DNA of 64,000 bases from Mycobacterium seoulense (GTDB lineage: Bacteria > Actinomycetota > Actinomycetes > Mycobacteriales > Mycobacteriaceae): the NCBI RefSeq assembly GCF_010731595.1, contig NZ_AP022582.1, positions 3,224,001 through 3,288,000 on the forward strand. The letters run 5' to 3'. Under the pieces are notes generated by a model. That model ran no database searches. It saw only the letters and a program-made list of their open reading frames with translations, and was not told the origin of the DNA. Shown here piece after piece: positions 9,925-56,186 of the stretch; the first letter of the stretch is position 1; the number at the start of each line of letters is the position of its first letter. A program made the translations under genes and the position numbers.

Positions 9925-10242
9925 GTGGGTTTGCTTGACGGTCGCGTCGTTTTCATCACTGGCGCGGCACGCGGTCAGGGCCGTTCGCATGCAGTCACTC
10001 TCGCAGAAGAAGGCGCCAACATCGTCGCCGTGGACATCTGCCGCGACATCGACGCCGTGCCGTACAGGTTGGGCACGTGGGAAGACCTCGAAGAGACAGC
10101 TCGACTCGTCCAGAGAACGGGCCGAGAGATTCAGTTCCAGGCGGCCGACGTGCGGCATAAGTCGGCCCTACAGGCCGCGTTCGACGCAGGTGTAGAGCAG
10201 TTCGGGCATATCGACACGGTGCTGGAACAAGTGGACCCCTAG
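9925..10242 (+). pseudogene. Truncated mycofactocin-type SDR (5' fragment copy of the gene at 32261)
   Basis: The 105 codons from GTG 9925 match the first 100 or so codons of the intact SDR at 32261-33088 almost exactly, including TGAARGQGRSHA and the GTWEDLEET segment. Similarity also covers about 30 bases of leader. Homology stops abruptly at about 10225 (after ...IDTVL), and the frame then ends in an unrelated EQVDP tail. The NAG motif, the catalytic Ser and YxxxK are all missing, so it cannot be an active dehydrogenase. Confidence 0.88.
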
Positions 10243-12557: not shown

Positions 12558-12988
12558 CTAAGTTTGGCCTCGCGAGTCGCCGGACCAGCCGTTCTGACTG
12601 GCGGCGAGCGCGAGTGGCCTGACATGCGCGGCAGGTCGGCTTACTACCACGGGCATCCCGATCGATGAGCCGTCTCCGAGGAGGAACTTGCCGTCGAGGC
12701 TCAGCTTGCCGGTCCGCCGCCATGGTCGAACGACACAGAACCACACCACCCCCGCTAAGAGCGCAAGGCTGAGACCCTCAAAGACTCTCAGTGCCACCAG
12801 ATTCCACGTCGGCATACGGTCAACCGGGCCCGCCCGAAGTCAGGTGAAAAGACCCACCGCACCAGCGCCTGCACCGCTACGACAAGCCACAGGGCCGCAA
12901 TCGCCGCCCCTACCGTCGCACCGCCAGTACGAGCGGGCTCGGATGCATTGGGGCTTGTCCGTGTGACGGCAAGCTCCGACACCACCAT
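12558..12988 (-). pseudogene. Frameshifted, truncated AveC-family membrane protein
   Basis: The first frame, from ATG 12988, encodes an N-terminal transmembrane helix (GGATVGAAIAALWLVVAVQA) and RWVFSPDF, then runs off. A one-base shift near 12840 continues with GPVDRMPTWNLVALRVFEGL, a second helix (LSLALLAGVVWFCVVRPW), and RRTGKLSLDGKFLLG. This RPWRR...LDG pattern is that of mycobacterial 'spirocyclase AveC family' proteins. The intact paralogs at 38994 and 54642 carry the equivalent RRCIRERRVTFD. The rest of the protein, including the conserved central His/Glu region, is missing. Confidence 0.65.
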
Positions 12989-13078: not shown

Positions 13079-13125
13079 ACTCTAAGTAGCGTCATGCCTT
13101 ATCAACCATCGATGAGGGGTTCGTG

Positions 13126-13848
13126 ATGACGACCGGCATTCAGAAAACGATGGCGTGGAGCGGCGCCGCCTTCCTGCTGCTCCTATTCCCCGGCATCATC
13201 ATGGTCGGCCTGCTCCCTCCGATGGCTCCCACGAAGTCCGCCGGCGAGGTCGCAGAGTTCTGGTCGACAAACACCGGGGTGAAGCGCACCGGACTTGTCG
13301 TCCTGCTGGCGGCGGCGGGACTCCAGGTACCCTTCGGCGCGCTCATCGCCGTGCGGATCAGGCAGCTCGAGGGCAGGTTCTCCCCGCTTGCCTACGCGCA
13401 GCTGATCGCCACCGGCCTTGCGGTGATGGCGATCGTCCTACCAACCTTTGCGTTCGCCGCGGCGTCGTATCGCCCCGAGCGCAATCCCGAGATCACCCAG
13501 GCACTCAACGACCTCGGCTGGCTGCCGTTCGTGATGAACTGGCCCGCGGCCACCATCCAGTGCCTGGCGATCGGCTTTGCGATCTTCGGCTACCAGGGGC
13601 CGCACCCCGTCTGGCCGAGATGGGTGGCCTACTACAACTTTTGGAGCGGTTTCATCTTCGCCGCAGGCGGTCTCGTGGTGTTGTTCAAGACCGGCGTGTT
13701 CGCCTGGAACGGACTGCTCGCGTTCTGGCTGGTTGCCGTGTTCTTCGGGGCGTGGCTCCTCGTCATGACCTGGCAGTTGCTGACAACGATTGGCGCGCAA
13801 CCGGCAGACGACCGCGAGGAGCCCGTCCTCCACCGCACAGGCGCATGA
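13126..13848 (+). CDS. Polytopic membrane protein of unknown function
   Basis: 240 residues from ATG 13126 (GTG 13123 is equally possible; GAGGGG precedes both). Several hydrophobic segments suggest about six transmembrane helices: residues about 10-30, 55-75, 85-115, 140-160, 170-190 and 195-220. I do not recognise a named domain. The stop overlaps the start of the CoxIII-like gene (ATGA), so it belongs to that operon. It may be an assembly or accessory subunit of the same membrane system. Confidence 0.8.
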   Translation: MTTGIQKTMAWSGAAFLLLLFPGIIMVGLLPPMAPTKSAGEVAEFWSTNTGVKRTGLVVLLAAAGLQVPFGALIAVRIRQLEGRFSPLAYAQLIATGLAVMAIVLPTFAFAAASYRPERNPEITQALNDLGWLPFVMNWPAATIQCLAIGFAIFGYQGPHPVWPRWVAYYNFWSGFIFAAGGLVVLFKTGVFAWNGLLAFWLVAVFFGAWLLVMTWQLLTTIGAQPADDREEPVLHRTGA

Positions 13849-14444
13849 TCGCAACGGCCGACCGCGAGACACGGGCACGGGCCACAGAACCCAAACGCAT
13901 TCCCGGCGAGGAAGGGATTTGGGTATTCGTCCTCGGCGACATGACGGTGTTCGCGCTGTTTTTCGCCACGTTCATGTACTCACGCGCCAAGAACCCTGAG
14001 CTCTTCGCCCGCGATCACGCGAGCCTGAACGTCGCCCTGGGCACCATGAACACCGTGCTGCTACTGAGCAGTTCGTTGTTTGTCGCATTGGCCGTACAGC
14101 AAGTCCTCACTGGTGTGCACCGCTCAGCGCTCCGGCTGTTCGGTGCCGCGCTCGCATGCGGACTGGGCTTCGTCGTTGTGAAGGCCGTGGAGTGGTTGCA
14201 TCTGTTCGGTAACGGCAAGACCGTCGGCAGCGGCGAGTTCTTCTCGTATTACTTCATGTTCACCGGTATACATCTGGCGCACGTGTTGATCGGCTGCGTG
14301 GTGCTGAGCCGGCTCATCACGGTCAGCCGCAAGCCACAGCTGAGTGGGCGCGACACGATGCTGTGCGAGGCCGGCGGCATCTTCTGGCACATGGTCGACC
14401 TGCTGTGGGTCGTACTGTTCGCTCTCTTCTATCTGATGCGGTGA
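13845..14444 (+). CDS. Cytochrome c oxidase subunit III family protein (NorE-like)
   Basis: 199 residues with five hydrophobic segments and the family marks GEEGIWVFVLGDMTVFALFF, SYYFMFTGIHLAHVLIGC and GIFWHMVDLLWVVLFALFYL. The short form, which lacks the first two helices of CoxIII and begins PGEEGIWVFVLGD, is characteristic of the NorE-like branch. That branch goes with nitric-oxide-reductase accessory genes rather than a full terminal oxidase. No CoxI, CoxII or NorB/NorC is present in the window. The start ATG 13845 overlaps the upstream stop. It acts in the membrane, but its partner is unknown. Confidence 0.87.
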   Translation: MIATADRETRARATEPKRIPGEEGIWVFVLGDMTVFALFFATFMYSRAKNPELFARDHASLNVALGTMNTVLLLSSSLFVALAVQQVLTGVHRSALRLFGAALACGLGFVVVKAVEWLHLFGNGKTVGSGEFFSYYFMFTGIHLAHVLIGCVVLSRLITVSRKPQLSGRDTMLCEAGGIFWHMVDLLWVVLFALFYLMR

Positions 14445-14710
14445 TGGCAATGACGCGCCGGGTGACTCTGGTATGGGCCGCGCTCATCGGCCTCACGTTC
14501 GCATCGTTCACCGTTGGGGTCGAACAGGGCGCCGGCGTGGCATCGGCGGCCGCCGTGGTCATCATCGGCCTCGCGCTGTCCAAAGTGCGGCTGATCGGCC
14601 TGCATTTCATGGATATCCGGGCCGCTCCGTGCACACTGCGCCTCATATTCGAGGGCTACGTCCTCGTAGTGTTTGCCACGCTGGTGACGTTGGACCTCGT
14701 CGTGTCCTAG
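14444..14710 (+). CDS. Cytochrome c oxidase subunit IV / NorF-like small membrane protein
   Basis: 88 residues (MAMTRRVTLVW...), about three transmembrane helices, matching the prokaryotic subunit IV-like family: VVIIGLALSKVRLIGLHFMDIR is the conserved loop with the HFMD/R pattern. The start overlaps the CoxIII-like stop (TGATG). An upstream in-frame start at 14363 lies inside the CoxIII-like gene and is unlikely. It pairs with the CoxIII-like protein as NorF does with NorE in denitrifiers. Confidence 0.82.
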   Translation: MAMTRRVTLVWAALIGLTFASFTVGVEQGAGVASAAAVVIIGLALSKVRLIGLHFMDIRAAPCTLRLIFEGYVLVVFATLVTLDLVVS

Positions 14711-32260: not shown

Positions 32261-33088
32261 ATGGGGTTGCTCGACGGTCGGGTTGTTTTCATCACTGGCG
32301 CGGCACGCGGTCAGGGCCGTTCGCATGCAGTCACTCTCGCAGAAGAAGGCGCCAACATCGTCGCCGTGGACATCTGCCACGACATCGACGCCGTGCCCTA
32401 CAAGTTGGGCACGTGGGAAGACCTTGAAGAGACGGCACGGCTCGTCGAGAAAACGGGCCGACAGATGCACTTCCAGGCGGCCGACGTGCGGGATAAGTCG
32501 GCCCTTCAGGCCGCGTTTAACGCAGGTGTAGAGCAGTTCGGGCATATCGACACGGTGCTGGCCAATGCCGGGATCATCCTCACCAACCCCGACGAGGTCG
32601 ACGCCTCGGAGTCATTGCGGCTGGGCATCGACGTCATGCAGATTGGTGTCTGGAATGCCTTCCAGGTCGCGATTCCCCACATGAAGGAACGTGGCGAGGG
32701 CGGACATTTGATTGCCACTAGTTCGATGGCGGCACTGCTGGACATGACCGATGGCGGTGGAGGCTCCGACGCCTATGTGATGGCCAAGGTGGCCATTGTT
32801 GGACTCGTCCGAGCATACGCTAATTTGCTTGCCGCGCATCGAATCCGGGTTAATGCTGTGGCGCCGACGAACTGCGCGACGCCTATGGTCCTGGAAAACC
32901 CAGCGCTGTTCAAGGTGATCGAGCAGACGCCACACATGGCCACCGCGATGCAAACGGCGTTGCCGGACTTCCCGATGATCGAGCCCAGAGACGTCAGCAA
33001 CGCCATCCTTTTCTTGCTGTCGGATCTCGGCCGCACATTCACCGGCAGCGTCCTCAAGGTCGACGCAGGCATGGACGTCCGCCGCTGA
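32261..33088 (+). CDS. Mycofactocin-dependent SDR oxidoreductase
   Basis: 275 residues, complete. FITGAARGQGRSHAVTLAEE is followed by VDICHDIDAVPYKLGTWEDL, the mycofactocin-subfamily insertion. LANAGIIL, IATSSMAALLDM and DAYVMAKVAIVGL supply Asn, Ser, Tyr and Lys. FTGSVLKVDAGMDVRR is the C-terminus. AGGAAGGAA before ATG 32261 is the ribosome site. The gene at 9925 is a 5' fragment of a near-identical copy. It probably oxidises a secondary or primary alcohol in the pathway. It stands alone on the plus strand. Confidence 0.94.
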   Translation: MGLLDGRVVFITGAARGQGRSHAVTLAEEGANIVAVDICHDIDAVPYKLGTWEDLEETARLVEKTGRQMHFQAADVRDKSALQAAFNAGVEQFGHIDTVLANAGIILTNPDEVDASESLRLGIDVMQIGVWNAFQVAIPHMKERGEGGHLIATSSMAALLDMTDGGGGSDAYVMAKVAIVGLVRAYANLLAAHRIRVNAVAPTNCATPMVLENPALFKVIEQTPHMATAMQTALPDFPMIEPRDVSNAILFLLSDLGRTFTGSVLKVDAGMDVRR

Positions 33089-34801: not shown

Positions 34802-34999
34802 TCAATCTTCGACAAAGCTGATGGCCCGTTCCGGACAGTTGGATACCGCCGAACGTGCCTCGGCGAGATGATCGTCGTGGACCACGCCGCCGCCGACGAC
34901 ATGTCCGTAGCCTTGGTCGTCATCCTCGAAGAGATGCGGAGCCAAAGAGTAGCAGAGTCCGTGGCCGGTGCAGGCGACGCCGTCGAGGTTGAGCTTCAT
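34802..34999 (-). CDS. [3Fe-4S]-type ferredoxin
   Basis: 65 residues, MKLNLDGVACTGHGLCYSLA. Cluster motif Cys-x2-His-x2-Cys with distal NCPERAI. The ATG overlaps the P450 stop (GGATGA), and the GAGGGA inside the P450 tail is its ribosome site, which fixes the start against a longer open frame. It is the redox partner of the P450 at 34996, analogous to the pair at 7005/8228 but in reverse gene order (P450 first). Confidence 0.9.
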   Translation of the reverse strand: MKLNLDGVACTGHGLCYSLAPHLFEDDDQGYGHVVGGGVVHDDHLAEARSAVSNCPERAISFVED

Positions 35000-36186
35000 C
35001 CCTCTGCCTTGTCGAACTCCAGGTGAAGCGATTCGAGCCCGACAGTGCCATGAGGCCAGTGCACTTTGGGTGTGGTGCCGGACTTGATCCGGTAGTGCGG
35101 AATCCGCTTGTGCCACTCCTCGTACACGATGCTCAATTCCAGTCTGGCCAGATGCGAACCCAGACAGCGGTGTGGTCCCATCCCGAAGCTGATGTGCGGG
35201 TTTTCCGGCCGGTGGAAGTCGATATCGTGCGGGTTTTCGAATACGGCTGGATCCCGGTTAACGGCGCCGAGATACGTCGACACACGTGTTTCCGCACAGA
35301 GCCGCGCCGACCCGATGTGAGCCTCGGCGGAGGTCACCCTCGGGATGAACGGGGCTGGCGGATCCAGACGAAGCAGCTCTTCCACCGCGGCGGGAATCAG
35401 AGCAGGGTCGTCGATGATCTCCTGCCGCGTGTCCGCACTCTCCGCAAGCCGCTGCATTGCACAACCCAGCGTATCCGTCACGGTGTCCAGCCCGGCGAGC
35501 ACGAACAAGAAGCAGAGGCCGACGGCTTCGGCATCCGTGAGGTCGTCGGGTGGTTGTTTGGCCAATATCTGGCTCAGGACGTCATCACCGCCCTTACCGC
35601 GGCGCTGGGGAATCAGTTCAGTGAAGTACGTGTACATCTCGAGCGCCTTCATCATGCCCTCTTGAGCGGCGTCGCCGTCGGCGGCGAAACCGGCCCCCGT
35701 GAGGCCGATCACTGCGTTCTTCCACTCCCAAAACTGGTCGCGCATCTCGAGCGGCAATCCGAAGAACGTGAGGAATGCCTGGATTGGGAACACCTGAGCG
35801 ACCTCGCTGACGAAATCGCAATGGCCGCACCGCGCGATCGGGTCGATGAGCGCGATGAATTGACTGCGCAGTTCGGCTTCCATCGGTTTGATGACGCGCG
35901 GACTGAAGAACGGCTGCAAGATCTGACGGTAGCGCGTCTGCGTCGGCGGGTCATAGGCGATGGGCACAAGCGGCACCGGGCTCTGCAGCATGTCGAACGC
36001 TTTGGCCGAAGAGAACGGGTCGGGGTGCTTGAGCACATCTTCCGCGCCGCGACGGGTGGTCACCGCATATCCATCGGCGACGGCGATCAGCGGGGCCACT
36101 TGGGTCGCCCGCCACGCCTGATCGCGTGCGACGTCCATGGGCAGTCCGTCCGTGTCGATCTGTGGAATTGCGTCAGCGGTCGTCAT
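34996..36186 (-). CDS. Cytochrome P450
   Basis: 396 residues. I-helix AGLDTVT at 231-237, ExxR Glu270-Arg273, heme loop FGMGPHRCLGSHLARLE with Cys341. PFFSPRVIKPMEAELRSQF and NRDPAVFENPHDIDFHRPEN are well conserved P450 elements. Followed by its ferredoxin with 4-base overlap. The promoter region to the right contains TAGAATCTA (36237-36245), shared with several other promoters here. Substrate unknown. Confidence 0.95.
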   Translation of the reverse strand: MTTADAIPQIDTDGLPMDVARDQAWRATQVAPLIAVADGYAVTTRRGAEDVLKHPDPFSSAKAFDMLQSPVPLVPIAYDPPTQTRYRQILQPFFSPRVIKPMEAELRSQFIALIDPIARCGHCDFVSEVAQVFPIQAFLTFFGLPLEMRDQFWEWKNAVIGLTGAGFAADGDAAQEGMMKALEMYTYFTELIPQRRGKGGDDVLSQILAKQPPDDLTDAEAVGLCFLFVLAGLDTVTDTLGCAMQRLAESADTRQEIIDDPALIPAAVEELLRLDPPAPFIPRVTSAEAHIGSARLCAETRVSTYLGAVNRDPAVFENPHDIDFHRPENPHISFGMGPHRCLGSHLARLELSIVYEEWHKRIPHYRIKSGTTPKVHWPHGTVGLESLHLEFDKAEG

Positions 36187-36357: not shown

Positions 36358-38115
36358 TCACGCCGGCACGGTGAACGAACTATGGTCTCCACGGCGACGC
36401 GCATCAGCCAGCGCTTGGCGAATGAGTTTTCCGAGTTGGCGCTCGATCCCGCTGATGTTAGCGACGTGCAGCGCCGAGGCCGAGTCAAGCGCGTTGCGTT
36501 GAACGTGAGACTCATTGCTGTTCGGTGCCGTAACTCCGACGCATACGAAGCCGACGCCCCGCAAGCGGGCTTCGCTCATGGCGTGGCGGGTGTCGCCCGA
36601 GGCCTGGGCGCCGTCGTAGCCGTCATCGTAGGGGTGCCCGTCCGAAACGAGGATGACCACCCGCTTCATTGCTTCGGTCTGACGTTCCAAGATGGCGGTG
36701 CAATGACGAACGGCACCGCCGATCCGCGTGAAGCCCGCCGGACTCAGGTGGCCGATTCGCTCGATGGTCAAGGCCGACAGGCTTTCTCGTAGACCCTTGA
36801 TCGGCATCACGTGGACCATTTCGCGGCCCCAACTGCGGAACGCGTAGAAACCAACAGGCACTCCGAGCGCATCGAGCGCGGTTGTAATGCGATAGGACAT
36901 CTTGAGGTGTTGGTCGAACACCGATCCGGTTTCCCCGTCCACGCGCGCCGTCGTGTCCAGCGTCGAACTGCTGACGTCCAAAAGTACCAACGCCGCGACG
37001 CCCGGTCGCTGTCGCTTCTTCCCGATGAAGGGCAGCGGCGGAGAGCCGGATCTGCTTCGGCGCCAGTATGCTAGGTCGACGACGCCATCGGTGTGCAATT
37101 GTTCACCGAATTCGTTGCGCCCGTGTGGCGCAATCTCCAGCACGTTACGAGCGAGGCTGCGTGTAAGCGCCGTCGGTGCCCTCATTACCTCGATGCGAGC
37201 GAGTGCCGTGTGGTCACGGAAGCCATCCGGATTCCATGGCTCGAGTTCGTGCACGGTAACCCAGTCGTTGCGATACCGCTTCGAACTCTCGTCCCATTCC
37301 GGATAGCGGGCGTCGCCGCTGTAATTGCCGCCGATGAATCTGTGAGCGGCCGAGGCGATGCGGCGGCCGATGTTGACTCGGCGTCCCCCGCTGGGCCGCC
37401 TGCTCGGTTTGGCCACCGGCTTTCCGCCGCCGGCTTGGGATGCCGCATCTGCAGATTTGCCACCAGAATGCTTGAACAGACTCTGGATCAGCCTGGCCAT
37501 CGGGTGGTTCGGCGTCAGCGGATTACTCAGCAGATCAAGGGACTTGGCCTCGTCGCTGTTGGTGTCGGGATCGTCCGCCTCATCGGCGTTTGAGTCATTG
37601 CGCATCTTCACGTCGCCGTCGTGCTCCCGGCCTGTACGCGCTGTCGCCGCCAATACCGCACGCGCGGGTCTGAGCTGACCGAAGAATTCGGGTGCAGGAG
37701 GAATCTGGGTTCGCGCCAATGCTATCCGCATCGACTCTTCGGCTGAACTGGTCCTGGGGATGTCCGTCAGCCCAGCCGCTAATGCTGCTACAAAGGGCGG
37801 CAATCGATCCGAGGTCAGCGAGAGCGCACGCAGACCTTCCATGGCGCAGTAGCGCGTGCACGCGCCAGACCGCCCGATGAGGTGACGCAGGACCCGCGGA
37901 TCAAATGATCCGGCACCGTACATCGCGGCTTGTACGACTACTCGAGCCCGGGTCAGCGTGGTGAGTCGCCCGCCGTCGACTGCGATCGTGTTTCCCGACA
38001 TATGGACGCCTTCGTCTTGCCCGGTCGTGGCCTTGACACACACCAGGCGTCCCGATACCGCACGGGCCAGCATTTGCAAGCCGGCGACGGTCGGTTGATC
38101 AGTCGATGTAGGCAT
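36358..38115 (-). CDS. VWA-domain protein of the NorD/CbbO type
   Basis: 585 residues. The first third is helical; residues 168-195 are an acidic linker (REHDGDVKMRNDSNADEADD then DPDTNSDEA). A C-terminal von Willebrand factor A domain follows, with MIDAS motif LLDVSSST at 378-385 (Asp380, Ser382, Ser384), ERIGHLSPAGFTRIGGAVRH carrying the conserved Thr, and LVSDGHPYDDGYDG with the late Asp. This is the layout of NorD/CbbO partners of MoxR-type AAA+ chaperones, which remodel or load metal into a client enzyme. It overlaps the AAA+ gene by 17 bases and is third in an operon with an AveC-like protein. There is no NO reductase or Rubisco here, so the client is unknown. Confidence 0.88.
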   Translation of the reverse strand: MPTSTDQPTVAGLQMLARAVSGRLVCVKATTGQDEGVHMSGNTIAVDGGRLTTLTRARVVVQAAMYGAGSFDPRVLRHLIGRSGACTRYCAMEGLRALSLTSDRLPPFVAALAAGLTDIPRTSSAEESMRIALARTQIPPAPEFFGQLRPARAVLAATARTGREHDGDVKMRNDSNADEADDPDTNSDEAKSLDLLSNPLTPNHPMARLIQSLFKHSGGKSADAASQAGGGKPVAKPSRRPSGGRRVNIGRRIASAAHRFIGGNYSGDARYPEWDESSKRYRNDWVTVHELEPWNPDGFRDHTALARIEVMRAPTALTRSLARNVLEIAPHGRNEFGEQLHTDGVVDLAYWRRSRSGSPPLPFIGKKRQRPGVAALVLLDVSSSTLDTTARVDGETGSVFDQHLKMSYRITTALDALGVPVGFYAFRSWGREMVHVMPIKGLRESLSALTIERIGHLSPAGFTRIGGAVRHCTAILERQTEAMKRVVILVSDGHPYDDGYDGAQASGDTRHAMSEARLRGVGFVCVGVTAPNSNESHVQRNALDSASALHVANISGIERQLGKLIRQALADARRRGDHSSFTVPA

Positions 38116-38932
38116 CGATCAGTTCAGCGATCGACCTCGTGACCGTCGCGTCGTCGGTCAGCATGGCCGCGATCGCGCTGCGTGCCGCGCGATTGAGCGA
38201 AAGTCCGTTGGCGTGCAGCCGTGCCGCCGCGATCAAGGCCCGAGTCGACACCATCTCCGACATGCTCGGCTCGTTCAGATGTCGCACTGCTTGACCTAGT
38301 CGCACCAGTGTGGCGACGGCCTCGTCCGAGGCGCCCGACTGCTCCTTCACTATTTGGTGTTCGAGTTCCGGTGGTGCGAAGTCGAGTTCCACGGCCACAA
38401 AGCGTTGACGCGTTGAGGGCTTGAGGTCCTTGAGCAACGTCTGATATCCAGGGTTGTAGGACACGATCAGCATGAATGATTCAGGGGCATCGAGTGTTTC
38501 ATTGAGTCGATCAATGAACAACTGTCGCCGATGGTCTGCAAGGGAGTGAATCACCACCGTTGCGTCGACGCGGGCTTCGACGATCTCGTCGAGATAACAG
38601 ATGGCACCACCACGAACCGCCGTGGTGAGCGGTCCGTCCTGCCAGACGGTGTCCGCGCCCTCGAGCAGATAACGCCCCACCAGATCTGCGGCGAGCATGT
38701 CCTCATGGCACGACACCGTGACGAGGTCCAGTCCGAGTCGACGTGCCGCACTTTCCACCAACTTCGTCTTACCGCAGCCCGTCGGACCCTTCAGCAGCAC
38801 CGGCAGACGCGCTCGCCAGGCTCCCAGCAGGATGTCCAGTTCATCCCCGACGGGATGGTAGTCGTCGACGACGCCGAGTGTGAGGTTGTGATTGTTGATC
38901 ACGGGACCACGTTGGGAGGAGTGAATCGTCAT
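38099..38932 (-). CDS. MoxR-type AAA+ ATPase (CbbQ/NirQ/NorQ family)
   Basis: 277 residues. Walker A is LKGPTGCGKTKLVE (GPTGCGKT at 49-56), Walker B AICYLDEIVEA (Asp115, Glu116), sensor 1 in VSYNPGYQTLLKDLKPSTRQ (Asn160), with arginine-finger candidates in STRQRF. The SYNPGYQ...LKDLKPSTRQRF block is diagnostic of the CbbQ/NorQ branch. It forms hexamers that work with a VWA partner to activate a client protein. It sits 61 bases downstream of the AveC-like gene and overlaps the VWA gene, so the three form one transcription unit. Confidence 0.93.
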   Translation of the reverse strand: MTIHSSQRGPVINNHNLTLGVVDDYHPVGDELDILLGAWRARLPVLLKGPTGCGKTKLVESAARRLGLDLVTVSCHEDMLAADLVGRYLLEGADTVWQDGPLTTAVRGGAICYLDEIVEARVDATVVIHSLADHRRQLFIDRLNETLDAPESFMLIVSYNPGYQTLLKDLKPSTRQRFVAVELDFAPPELEHQIVKEQSGASDEAVATLVRLGQAVRHLNEPSMSEMVSTRALIAAARLHANGLSLNRAARSAIAAMLTDDATVTRSIAELIDAYID

Positions 38933-38993
38933 ACGTCCTTGCTCAGGTTAAGTAGGGCAGTTGAATCGTCGTTCGGCCGCTTAGTAGGTTTCC

Positions 38994-40127
38994 TCAGCCC
39001 CCGAGGTATACGTCGACCCAAGTGCGGCCGTCACCGGGGATGTCACGAGGCGAGCCGGGTTGACCACCAGTCGAAATGGGCCGTCCCGCAGCGGGATCGG
39101 GACATGGATACGGTGTTTCATGCCCGCAGATCCCATTGATCAGGTGCGACGGATAGACAGCGTGGCCGTCATTGTCGATCTGCAGGCCGATCCCGATCAT
39201 CACGATGTTGTAGCTCAGGTAGCCGATGTTCGTCACCGCGGCGACGGCCAGGATCTGCAGGCCCACCTTTGCTTTGTTGGACACATTGAGGCGGTCGACC
39301 CCGCGCTCGACGACGGAATGGCCACGGTCATCTAGATAGAACCGCAGAACCATCAGCGGCGCCCAGGCAAGTCCACCCCACACCAGCGACTCATAGAGGG
39401 GGAATTGGTGCGATGTGCCTTTGAAGAGCGTCAGCCAGCTCACGGTGTTCGGATAGGCGATGATGTGCCCGTAGCACAGCACGGTCTCGATGACGAAGTC
39501 GGCGAGCAGCATAAAGCCGAGGGACCACAGGATGATGCCCAGCTTGCCGGTCTGTGGCCAGCGCCTCATTACGACCTTGCGCAGGAAACCGCAACCGATC
39601 ATGCACAGCGACGCACTCCAGATGAACCCGATGCCGATCAGGATGGTCGGCTCGGGCATGAGGTTGCCATGAGGTGACACCCAGCCGGGCATGTCGGTCG
39701 TCCACGACCCGAAGTTCATCATCAGCGACGAGTACGAGAACTGCGGCGTGACGTAGTTCAGAATCGGATCCCATTGGATCAGCAGCAGGTAGGCGACTAT
39801 GAGGATGGCGTCGAAGGTGACCCGCCGCTCCCGTATGCATCGCCTGCCGACGTAGATCAGAGTTCCGATGACGGCAATGATCGTCAGCACCTGGGCGCCG
39901 ATGTTCCAGGCCAGATCCCTGCCCAGCTTCGGGTTGTTGGCACCGATCGGCGTAGGCGTCGCACGACCACCGAGGATCCAACTCGACGCGACGTAGATCG
40001 CCAGGGCGATGAACGCCGCACCGACCGTCGCCCAAGCGACGATCGGAACCGTGGTCCGCACCCGCGGCGTCTTCATCAGCTTGTCAGGGCCAGCACTCGC
40101 GAGCGGCCCTCTTTCCAACGTCGTCAT
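38994..40127 (-). CDS. AveC-family polytopic membrane protein
   Basis: 377 residues from ATG 40127, preceded by AAGGGG; a frame extension to 40235 lacks support. About seven transmembrane helices. Strings conserved with the paralog at 54642 include QWDPILNYV, NFGSWTTDMPGWVSP, NLMPEP, RKVVMRRWPQTGKLGIILWS, IETVLCYGHIIAY, GTSHQFPLYESLVWGG and FYLDDRGHSVVERGVDRLNV. Polar residues that could bind a metal lie in or beside helices: Asp210, Glu214, His221, His240, Glu246, His270, Glu274. AveC itself acts in avermectin spiroketal formation, but mycobacterial relatives have no known function. Followed directly by the NorQ- and NorD-like genes. Confidence 0.85.
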   Translation of the reverse strand: MTTLERGPLASAGPDKLMKTPRVRTTVPIVAWATVGAAFIALAIYVASSWILGGRATPTPIGANNPKLGRDLAWNIGAQVLTIIAVIGTLIYVGRRCIRERRVTFDAILIVAYLLLIQWDPILNYVTPQFSYSSLMMNFGSWTTDMPGWVSPHGNLMPEPTILIGIGFIWSASLCMIGCGFLRKVVMRRWPQTGKLGIILWSLGFMLLADFVIETVLCYGHIIAYPNTVSWLTLFKGTSHQFPLYESLVWGGLAWAPLMVLRFYLDDRGHSVVERGVDRLNVSNKAKVGLQILAVAAVTNIGYLSYNIVMIGIGLQIDNDGHAVYPSHLINGICGHETPYPCPDPAAGRPISTGGQPGSPRDIPGDGRTWVDVYLGG

Positions 40128-54641: not shown

Positions 54642-55763
54642 TCAGCGCCCGAGATAAACGTCGACCCAAGTCCGTCCGTTGCCCGGCACGTCGCTCGGCG
54701 ATGCCGGCTTGCCGCCCGTAGGTATCGACATACCGGTCCCCGGAGTGGTGCACTTGTTCTGCGGGCCGCACAGCGAGTTGGTCAGGTGCGACGGGTAGAC
54801 CGCCGAGGCATCATTGTCGTTTTGCAGGCTGATGCCGATCATGACGATGTTGTAGCTCACGTAGCAGATGTTGGTCACCGCGCCCAGCGCGAGAATCTGC
54901 AGGAGGACCTTCGTCTTGTAGGACACGTTGAGGCGATCAACGCCGCGCTCCACGACCGAGTGACCACGGTCGTCCAGGTAGAACCGGAGCACCATGAGGG
55001 GCGCCCACCCGAGCCCTCCCCATACGAGCGCTTCGTAGATTGGGAACTGATGAGATGTCCCCTGCCACAACGTCAGCCAACCCACGGTGTTGAAGTAGGC
55101 GATGTTGTGACCGAAGCACAGAACGCTCTCGATGAGGATGTCCATGACAGCCATGAAGCCGACCGACCACAGGATGATGCCGAGCTTGCCGGTCTCCGGC
55201 CACCGCCTCATCACGACTTTGCGCAGGAATCCGCACCCGAGCATGCACAGCGCTGCACTCCACATGAACCCGATGCCGATCGCGGCGGTCGGCTCAGGCA
55301 TCAGGTTGGCCCCCGGCGACACCCAGCCCGGCACGTCGGTCGTCCACGAGCCGAAGTTGATCATCAATGAGGTGTAGGAGAACGTCGGCACCACGTAGTT
55401 GAGCACCGGATCCCATTGGACGAGCATCACATAGGCGATCATGAGCATCAGATCGAAAGTGACGCGCCGTTCCCTGATGCATCTGCGGATCACGAAGAAG
55501 AGCGCGATGCCGACGGCGACGAGGGCTGCCACCTGAGCGCCGATATTGAACGCGATCTCGCCGCTCGTCGGCTCGTCCTTGCCGAGCGGGGTGGGTGTGG
55601 CGCGACCGCCGAAGATCCAACTCGCCGCAATATATGCCGCAAGCACCATGAACAAAGCGCCGATCGTCGCCCACACAAGGATGGGGGTTGACGTCCGCAC
55701 CCGCGGCGCTTTCTTGAGTCTGTCCATGCCGCTGAGCTGCGGCTCGACATCCAATGTGGCCAC
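54642..55763 (-). CDS. AveC-family polytopic membrane protein
   Basis: 373 residues from GTG 55763, since GGGAGG lies five bases upstream. Closely related along its whole length to the AveC-like protein at 38994: shared strings include QWDPVLNYVVPTFSYTSLMI, WTTDVPGWVSPGANLMPEPT, RKVVMRRWPETGKLGIILWS, GTSHQFPIYEALVWGG, YLDDRGHSVVERGVDRLNVS and GNGRTWVDVYLGR. The putative metal-binding Glu and His residues are all kept. Unlike its paralog, no NorQ/NorD-like genes follow. It is divergent from the Rieske operon and bracketed by direct repeats. Confidence 0.87.
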   Translation of the reverse strand: MATLDVEPQLSGMDRLKKAPRVRTSTPILVWATIGALFMVLAAYIAASWIFGGRATPTPLGKDEPTSGEIAFNIGAQVAALVAVGIALFFVIRRCIRERRVTFDLMLMIAYVMLVQWDPVLNYVVPTFSYTSLMINFGSWTTDVPGWVSPGANLMPEPTAAIGIGFMWSAALCMLGCGFLRKVVMRRWPETGKLGIILWSVGFMAVMDILIESVLCFGHNIAYFNTVGWLTLWQGTSHQFPIYEALVWGGLGWAPLMVLRFYLDDRGHSVVERGVDRLNVSYKTKVLLQILALGAVTNICYVSYNIVMIGISLQNDNDASAVYPSHLTNSLCGPQNKCTTPGTGMSIPTGGKPASPSDVPGNGRTWVDVYLGR

Positions 55764-56186
55764 GAGCACCTCCCCTGTGATTAGTTAAACAAATAACTCT
55801 TAATGTGAAATGTAACGCAGAGCAAACCCGATTGGAAGCCAGAATCGAAGCGTGAACCGAAAAGCGGCAGGCATCTGCGGACTGCGCTGGCCCGATCTCG
55901 GGCACGTCGCCGGCCCGAGGGCGGCGCGCAGGACGCGCGCGGGCGCAACCTGATTGAAAAAAACACCGCCAGCGGCTTGCGGCTGTGTGCGGGCATGTTC
56001 GCCGAACGTGTTGACGCGGGCGAGCCAATTCGCAAGAGCTGCGGATCCCGGCGGCGTTCGACGCGGTCTCGGATAAGTCAAGTTGCTCCGCGTCAACAAC
56101 GGCCAATCGAGTGGCGACGCTGTCGTCCCTCCGCTTGCCTCACCACCTAGCTACAGCTAGAATCTACTCGTCTATAGAAAATAGCA
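55764..56186. promoter_or_regulatory. Divergent region between AveC-like gene and Rieske operon
   Basis: 423 bases. Left part (about 55800-55850) is partly conserved with the upstream region of the other AveC-like gene. Right part (56131-56186) is repeat B with TAGAATCTA at 56158-56166. TATAGA at 56173-56178 lies only eight bases before the Rieske ATG, which has no ribosome site: a leaderless transcript is likely. No gene in between. Confidence 0.55.

Follow-up and report, generated by a model that had tools for sequence, protein, structure and literature searches.

NorQ and NorD of the cytochrome c-dependent nitric oxide (NO) reductase are the closest solved relatives of the proteins described here, and to our knowledge NO reductase is the one membrane client shown so far for motors of this type. 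CbbQ, which belongs to the same AAA+ family, works with CbbO as a Rubisco activase. As set out in two reports on Paracoccus and Jhaorihella (PMC13036017, PMC9976466), the NO reductase system combines tandem genes for a NorQ-type AAA+ ATPase and a von Willebrand factor A (VWA) protein, which has a metal ion-dependent adhesion site (MIDAS) and a pore finger, with an adjacent polytopic membrane partner. In these reports, the NorD MIDAS is proposed to bind NorB D220 and E222 (PMC9976466), NorQ rotates the finger of the VWA adaptor, which grips its client in two places, and the stretched linker opens the client for iron (PMC13036017). We analysed a 64,000-nucleotide stretch of Mycobacterium seoulense DNA (the window; NZ_AP022582.1, positions 3,224,001 to 3,288,000) in which tandem genes for a NorQ/NorD-type pair, with MIDAS and candidate pore finger, adjoin the gene of an AveC-like membrane protein, and we put the probability that this AveC is the client of the pair at about 75%.

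The locus differs from that of NO reductase in that neither NorB nor NorC is encoded nearby and the partner is AveC. Avermectin AveC, a spirocyclase and dehydratase needed for spiroketal formation and optional dehydration according to PMC6490886, belongs to the same Pfam family (PF17198), and the relationship is drawn through this shared family. In contrast to avermectin biosynthesis, the window proteins given to Pfam include no polyketide synthase match, and the setting looks catabolic. PMC5819568 lists an AveC family protein merely as a taxonomic marker, PMC12657314 concerns a MoxR ATPase of the carbon monoxide dehydrogenase cluster, and no report of an association between AveC and NorQ/NorD was found in the open-licence literature searched. 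The trio and its parts are as follows.

38994..40127, minus strand: AveC-like seven-helix membrane protein, proposed client (377 residues; PF17198, E = 2.2e-41)
38099..38932, minus strand: NorQ-type MoxR AAA+ ATPase (277 residues; AAA_5, E = 1.8e-32; CbbQ_C, E = 6.5e-21)
36358..38115, minus strand: NorD-type VWA adaptor (585 residues; PF00092, E = 2.1e-5)
38765..38788, minus strand: Walker A of NorQ, GPTGCGKT, residues 49-56
38585..38602, minus strand: Walker B of NorQ, ICYLDE, residues 111-116
36964..36978, minus strand: MIDAS of the VWA protein, DVSSS, residues 380-384 (with T463 and D492)
37636..38115, minus strand: first 160 residues of the VWA protein, an N-terminal domain that marks the AveC-linked branch
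37246..37320, minus strand: candidate pore finger of the VWA protein, a hairpin at residues 266-290 (AlphaFold2 model and NorD match)
39303..39332, minus strand: proposed docking patch of AveC on the cytosolic side, DDRGHSVVER at residues 266-275 (motif counts; inside loop by charge)
39486..39770, minus strand: AveC span with conserved D120, N124, E159, D210 and E214, proposed active or metal site

The coordinates confirm three minus-strand genes with a gap of 61 bases between AveC and NorQ and an overlap of 17 bases between NorQ and the VWA gene. Profile matches and residues also agree with the original prediction of an AveC-like protein, a CbbQ/NorQ-type AAA+ ATPase with Walker motifs and a VWA protein with an intact MIDAS. 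The AveC-like protein scores 142.3 bits against a curated PF17198 cut-off of 26.6, the ATPase joins its Walker motifs to a CbbQ_C domain, and the VWA protein has a DxSxS-T-D MIDAS plus a finger, modelled by AlphaFold2 as a hairpin of strands 266-275 and 280-290. With such strong profile matches, and with the order AveC-NorQ-VWA repeating in other loci of this type (type A, below), the grouping exceeds chance.

Among solved structures the ATPase is closest to NorQ (9qhd, E = 3.4e-84), with CbbQ below it (6l1q, E = 2.3e-76). The match of the VWA protein to NorD begins at residue 267 and covers the hairpin. Profile A5 matches NorD only from NorD residue 233 on, leaving the adaptor N-terminal domain without a match to that of NorD, and the fold searches, which listed VWA matches only, barely probed this domain. 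Midasin/Rea1, which likewise has AAA+ and MIDAS-VWA parts, was among the structural matches of ATPase and VWA protein; it is a single giant eukaryotic protein for ribosome assembly. A tree of NorQ that took in reference NorQ and CbbQ sequences was star-like, with 9 of 44 inner branches starred, a shape that gives no decision between single and multiple origins of the AveC linkage.

Being of NorQ/NorD type, the pair might serve an NO reductase or RuBisCO encoded elsewhere, an explanation that we consider scarcely credible. RuBisCO (PF00016) has no match in the host genome, which, together with the higher-scoring solved NorQ, sets the pair apart from CbbQ/CbbO. The COX1 family (PF00115), to which NorB belongs, has just two genes here, one at 0.21 and one at 0.32 Mb, more than 1.5 Mb from each of the three NorQ/VWA pairs (1.86, 2.90 and 3.26 Mb), so that the PF00115 search found no norB linked to any pair in this genome; that the profile of the adaptor N-terminal domain gave no match to the NorD one also speaks against such a client. 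The second COX1-family gene (G000:C1:209397-210725) lies in an 834-residue open frame and might encode a quinol NO reductase.

The three host pairs represent one each of three types. The window set (AveC, NorQ, VWA) is type A. The type B locus, at 2.90 Mb, reads VWA, NorQ, Peripla_BP_6 protein, AveC, short-chain dehydrogenase/reductase (SDR), P450 and, by our reading, aldehyde dehydrogenase; its AveC, one gene off the pair (PF17198, E = 4.9e-66), shares 27% identity with the window AveC where the two align. At the type C locus, at about 1.86 Mb (L017 7536-14989), the pair is flanked by two related polytopic proteins, U246 and U295, after which come a DapB-like protein and a P450. U246 and U295 gave no Pfam match and have many invariant histidine, aspartate, glutamate and tryptophan residues; they are a possible further client family. 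A common superfamily of AveC, U246/U295 and the six-helix family discussed below was rejected, with HHalign probabilities below 3% in all three comparisons.

The linkage was surveyed in 98 genomes of the genus (loci are labelled L and genomes G). The window AveC query matched in 63 of them, and NorQ at 1e-40 or better in 68. The 150 NorQ matches listed comprise 99 of types A/B, 49 of type C and two excluded fragments. Counting the best 150 AveC matches by coordinates, AveC lay within 5 kb of 57 of the 99 type A/B NorQ genes and of one of the 49 of type C. As the window query is weak on type B AveC and only the best 150 matches were listed, an AveC profile was run over about 20 kb at each of the remaining 42 type A/B loci; 40 were positive (16 of 18 in L074-L109 and 24 of 24 in L200-L223, with L223 giving weak matches of 37 and 47 bits). 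Together, coordinates and profile place AveC within about 10 kb of 97/99 type A/B NorQ genes, where we estimate a chance expectation of about 0.2% (99 pairs with 10 kb apiece in 98 genomes of ~5.6 Mb). The same profile found AveC at none of the 11 type C loci selected through their NorQ and at 1/13 when L017 and L226 are added; L226 had been chosen for its AveC, and the 1/49 figure comes from the less sensitive list. Seen from AveC, 40 of the 53 matches of at least 155 bits, and 65 of the best 150, have a type A/B NorQ at most 5 kb away, and 40 of the 44 genomes with an AveC of at least 100 bits also have a type A/B NorQ. In G095 NorQ is split. Arrays of several AveC and six-helix genes occur at L112, L113, L224, L225 and L227 (G101, G076, G103), with 13 AveC matches in G076 and 17 in G103.

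Neighbours within 8 kb were counted at 100 NorQ loci, own window excluded, most of them chosen around NorQ and some around AveC. Type A loci (n=43) hold AveC in 41 cases and P450 in 5; type B loci (n=44) hold AveC in 43, with P450 and the binding protein in all 44; type C loci (n=13) hold a U protein in all 13, P450 in 8 and AveC in one. AveC is thus the constant common to types A and B. A P450 with its ferredoxin might instead be the client and AveC a mere pathway neighbour: a P450 lies downstream of the trio here as well as at every type B and most type C loci, and at L194 and L195 it comes directly after AveC. Its scarcity at type A loci, where AveC is nearly always present, makes this very unlikely, and we know of no cytosolic P450 that requires a NorQD-type motor.

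The adaptor itself appears to follow the client. Its N-terminal domain scores above 20 bits in 84 of the 88 VWA frames of AveC loci (the misses being L212, which is cut, L089 and L111, which are split, and L062, which scores 14) and in none of the 13 of type C, whose VWA proteins are more distant overall. Judged by these profile scores, the domain is seemingly client-specific.

To look outside the genus, species genomes were scanned once with a conserved stretch of AveC, which yielded 79 loci. NorQ and/or NorD stood at 15 of these (NorD only at L123 and at L127, which lies at the end of its stretch; some pair-free loci are on short stretches), so that linkage is frequent yet not general. Rare linkage of AveC to the pair, the outcome that would have counted against the original prediction, was looked for in this way: the linkage is common within the genus and confined to this minority of the wider loci, so that the prediction is partly supported. 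Besides our own locus, the 15 include three further mycobacterial ones and 11 outside mycobacteria, in metagenome-assembled genomes (MAGs) of Alphaproteobacteria, Acidimicrobiaceae, Sinobacteraceae, Aquabacterium and Proteobacteria and in Actinomycetospora, Nocardioides immobilis, Pseudonocardia eucalypti (two), Rhodoferax and Pseudomonas borbori. The pair is 6.7 to 7.5 kb from AveC in Rhodoferax and the Proteobacteria MAG, and in P. borbori the VWA and AveC frames are broken. Aquabacterium (L158) has a bare AveC/NorQ/NorD unit, VWA and NorQ diverging from AveC, among no recognisable pathway genes; its neighbours were read as housekeeping by eye, without a family search. As the pair accompanies AveC in two phyla, the AveC-like family probably requires a motor for activity.

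These loci also bear on another possibility: AveC might be a single subunit, with COX3-like, COX4-like and six-helix proteins as the others, of a larger membrane complex matured by the pair, in the way that NorQD goes together with NorBC, NorE and NorF. All three proteins are encoded in the window, at 13-14.7 kb, and they recur at 8 (COX3-like), 8 (COX4-like) and 18 (six-helix) of the 79 loci; at L106 all three even accompany a NorQ in the absence of AveC. Most loci with both pair and AveC lack them, including those of Aquabacterium and Nocardioides (L136), and we regard such a complex as unlikely, if less so than a P450 client. The stretch at L106 (8221-12515) encodes a P450, NorQ, the COX3-like, COX4-like and six-helix proteins, and no AveC or VWA protein.

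The AlphaFold2 model of AveC has seven long helices (pLDDT 88.3, pTM 0.85). Mean lysine plus arginine counts over 203 AveC proteins are 3.5, 4.5 and 5.9 in loops 2-3, 4-5 and 6-7, as opposed to 0.9 to 1.7 in the outer loops, which places the former three inside. In helices 3 to 6, conserved D120, N124, E159, D210, E214 and Q241 sit towards the outer ends. Close to the C-terminus are two cysteines, predicted to lie outside, which are each present in 24/24 type A proteins and absent from type B. Loop 6-7 bears D266-D267-x-G....E274, a motif found in 99/113 linked and 26/70 unlinked AveC proteins (20 with short context excluded); pair-free branches are mostly without it. By analogy with NorB D220/E222, we propose that this DDxG....E loop is a docking patch. 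The carboxylates D120/E159/D210/E214 were rejected as a marker of chaperone dependence: they occur in 97/113 linked and 28/70 unlinked proteins, and tree-independent pairs (0.9 versus 0.7) gave no effect.

The AveC-type N-terminal domain of NorD then served as a marker in the 29 genomes from which 30 of the 79 loci come (25 pair-free loci out of 64, mostly non-mycobacterial, and five with a pair). It was found in 19 of the 29 and, away from AveC, in 14 of the 24 genomes with a pair-free AveC locus: in 12 of 13 with the motif, the exception being a 2.6 Mb MAG, versus 2 of 11 without (Fisher p = 5e-4, with related rows, a motif picked with some AveC in view, and one genome, that of L142, already known to have pairs at L139 and L149). 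Among 246 Actinomycetota genomes, scored on the 14 and 8 top candidates of each genome so that weak AveC may have been missed, AveC and marker each occur in seven, the same seven (p = 1e-13 if rows were independent; four of the seven belong to the genus). In the three outside it (G022, G237, G301) the two are at most 0.9 kb apart. Pair and AveC could also be adjacent merely through common catabolic clusters, the window region being rich in coenzyme A (CoA) and redox enzymes and some AveC branches having no pair. This co-occurrence even when unlinked, a neighbourhood that persists across settings and phyla, and an adaptor domain that tracks the client render that account improbable, only a little less so than the P450 one.

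That AveC is the client thus remains the preferred reading. Most likely, by analogy, the pair remodels AveC as NorQD remodels NO reductase, and we propose for AveC the course described in PMC13036017. The NorQ hexamer would drive the VWA adaptor, whose AveC-type N-terminal domain and MIDAS would grip AveC on its cytosolic side, the probable contact being the DDxG....E loop that joins helices 6 and 7. An ATP-driven twist would then open the helix bundle, allowing a cofactor to be loaded, the leading idea being a metal at the conserved carboxylates, or folding to be completed. Metal loading as the action of the pair is a plausible but tentative suggestion, drawn from the NorQD analogy, to which we give somewhat less than even odds; the presence of a metal in AveC and the reaction catalysed are speculative.

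Several observations weigh against AveC as a pair-dependent client. Genomic association alone does not equal binding. L093 and L106 have a type A/B NorQ without AveC, 64 of the 79 wide-survey loci have no pair near, and AveC branches U1 and U2 (17 loci each) are without a nearby pair. G080, G127 and G100, all 99-100% complete, carry AveC of the linked kind, two of the three with the motif, and no AveC-type NorD. If AveC carried non-haem iron like that of NO reductase, a histidine cluster would be expected, and the conserved residues include none. We settled on the motif once the AveC comparison had been viewed, and its contrast was not significant after tree pairing (3.2 versus 0.4, with 15.4 alike; median p = 0.25). 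Because of these three genomes and of branches U1 and U2, dependence on the pair is not universal, or some AveC proteins are served differently; the predicted chaperone-dependent client is otherwise well supported by linkage and co-occurrence.

A wider proposal, which we hold more doubtful than metal loading, is that AveC-like proteins form a large overlooked class of membrane metalloenzymes matured by their own NorQD branch through the DDxG....E patch and the adaptor domain, with some branches, perhaps biosynthetic AveC, being motor-independent and type C likewise serving another family. Should AveC indeed be a second client family, present in both Actinomycetota and Proteobacteria, this would suggest that NorQD-type motors broadly activate polytopic membrane enzymes, and that the N-terminal domain of a VWA adaptor predicts its client. 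In that case AveC-like function would also become testable through co-expression with the pair, which may also account for AveC-like proteins that are inactive when expressed alone.

Other features of the window touch on the trio.

34996..36186, minus strand: cytochrome P450 (PF00067), downstream, 171 bases from the VWA gene
34802..35116, minus strand: one-cluster ferredoxin (PF13459)
54642..55769, minus strand: AveC paralog with no adjacent pair, 71% identical to the trio AveC and carrying the DDxG....E motif

The P450, the ferredoxin, which is likely its partner, and an F420-type LLM enzyme follow the trio on the same strand; P450 and trio perhaps belong to the same pathway, though the P450 is not a constant partner. 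Another AveC paralog (76% identity) lies 20 kb beyond the window, at 3.31 Mb. Both unlinked paralogs keep the motif and may share the pair of the trio. At 12675-12848 (minus strand) an AveC fragment with an internal stop is likely a pseudogene. About 3.4 kb left of the window (L019 13500-13604), a 35-residue fragment resembling the VWA protein (54% identity) is likely the relic of another pair.

At 13123-14710 (plus strand) the six-helix protein P0054, which gave no Pfam match, a COX3-family protein and a COX4_pro protein stand in tandem, a row that resembles the arrangement of NorE and NorF. In Thauera terpenica 58Eu (L187 7301-18049), AveC lies upstream of a gene set partly common to Azoarcus and Denitromonas loci; its genes, which we take without a family search to encode an acyl-CoA dehydrogenase, DUF1302/DUF1329-type proteins and an MMPL-type transporter, point to breakdown of hydrophobic compounds. 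Finally, 9925-10242 (plus strand) holds a truncated near-copy of the start of a mycofactocin-coupled SDR, the full SDR being at 32261-33088 (plus strand).

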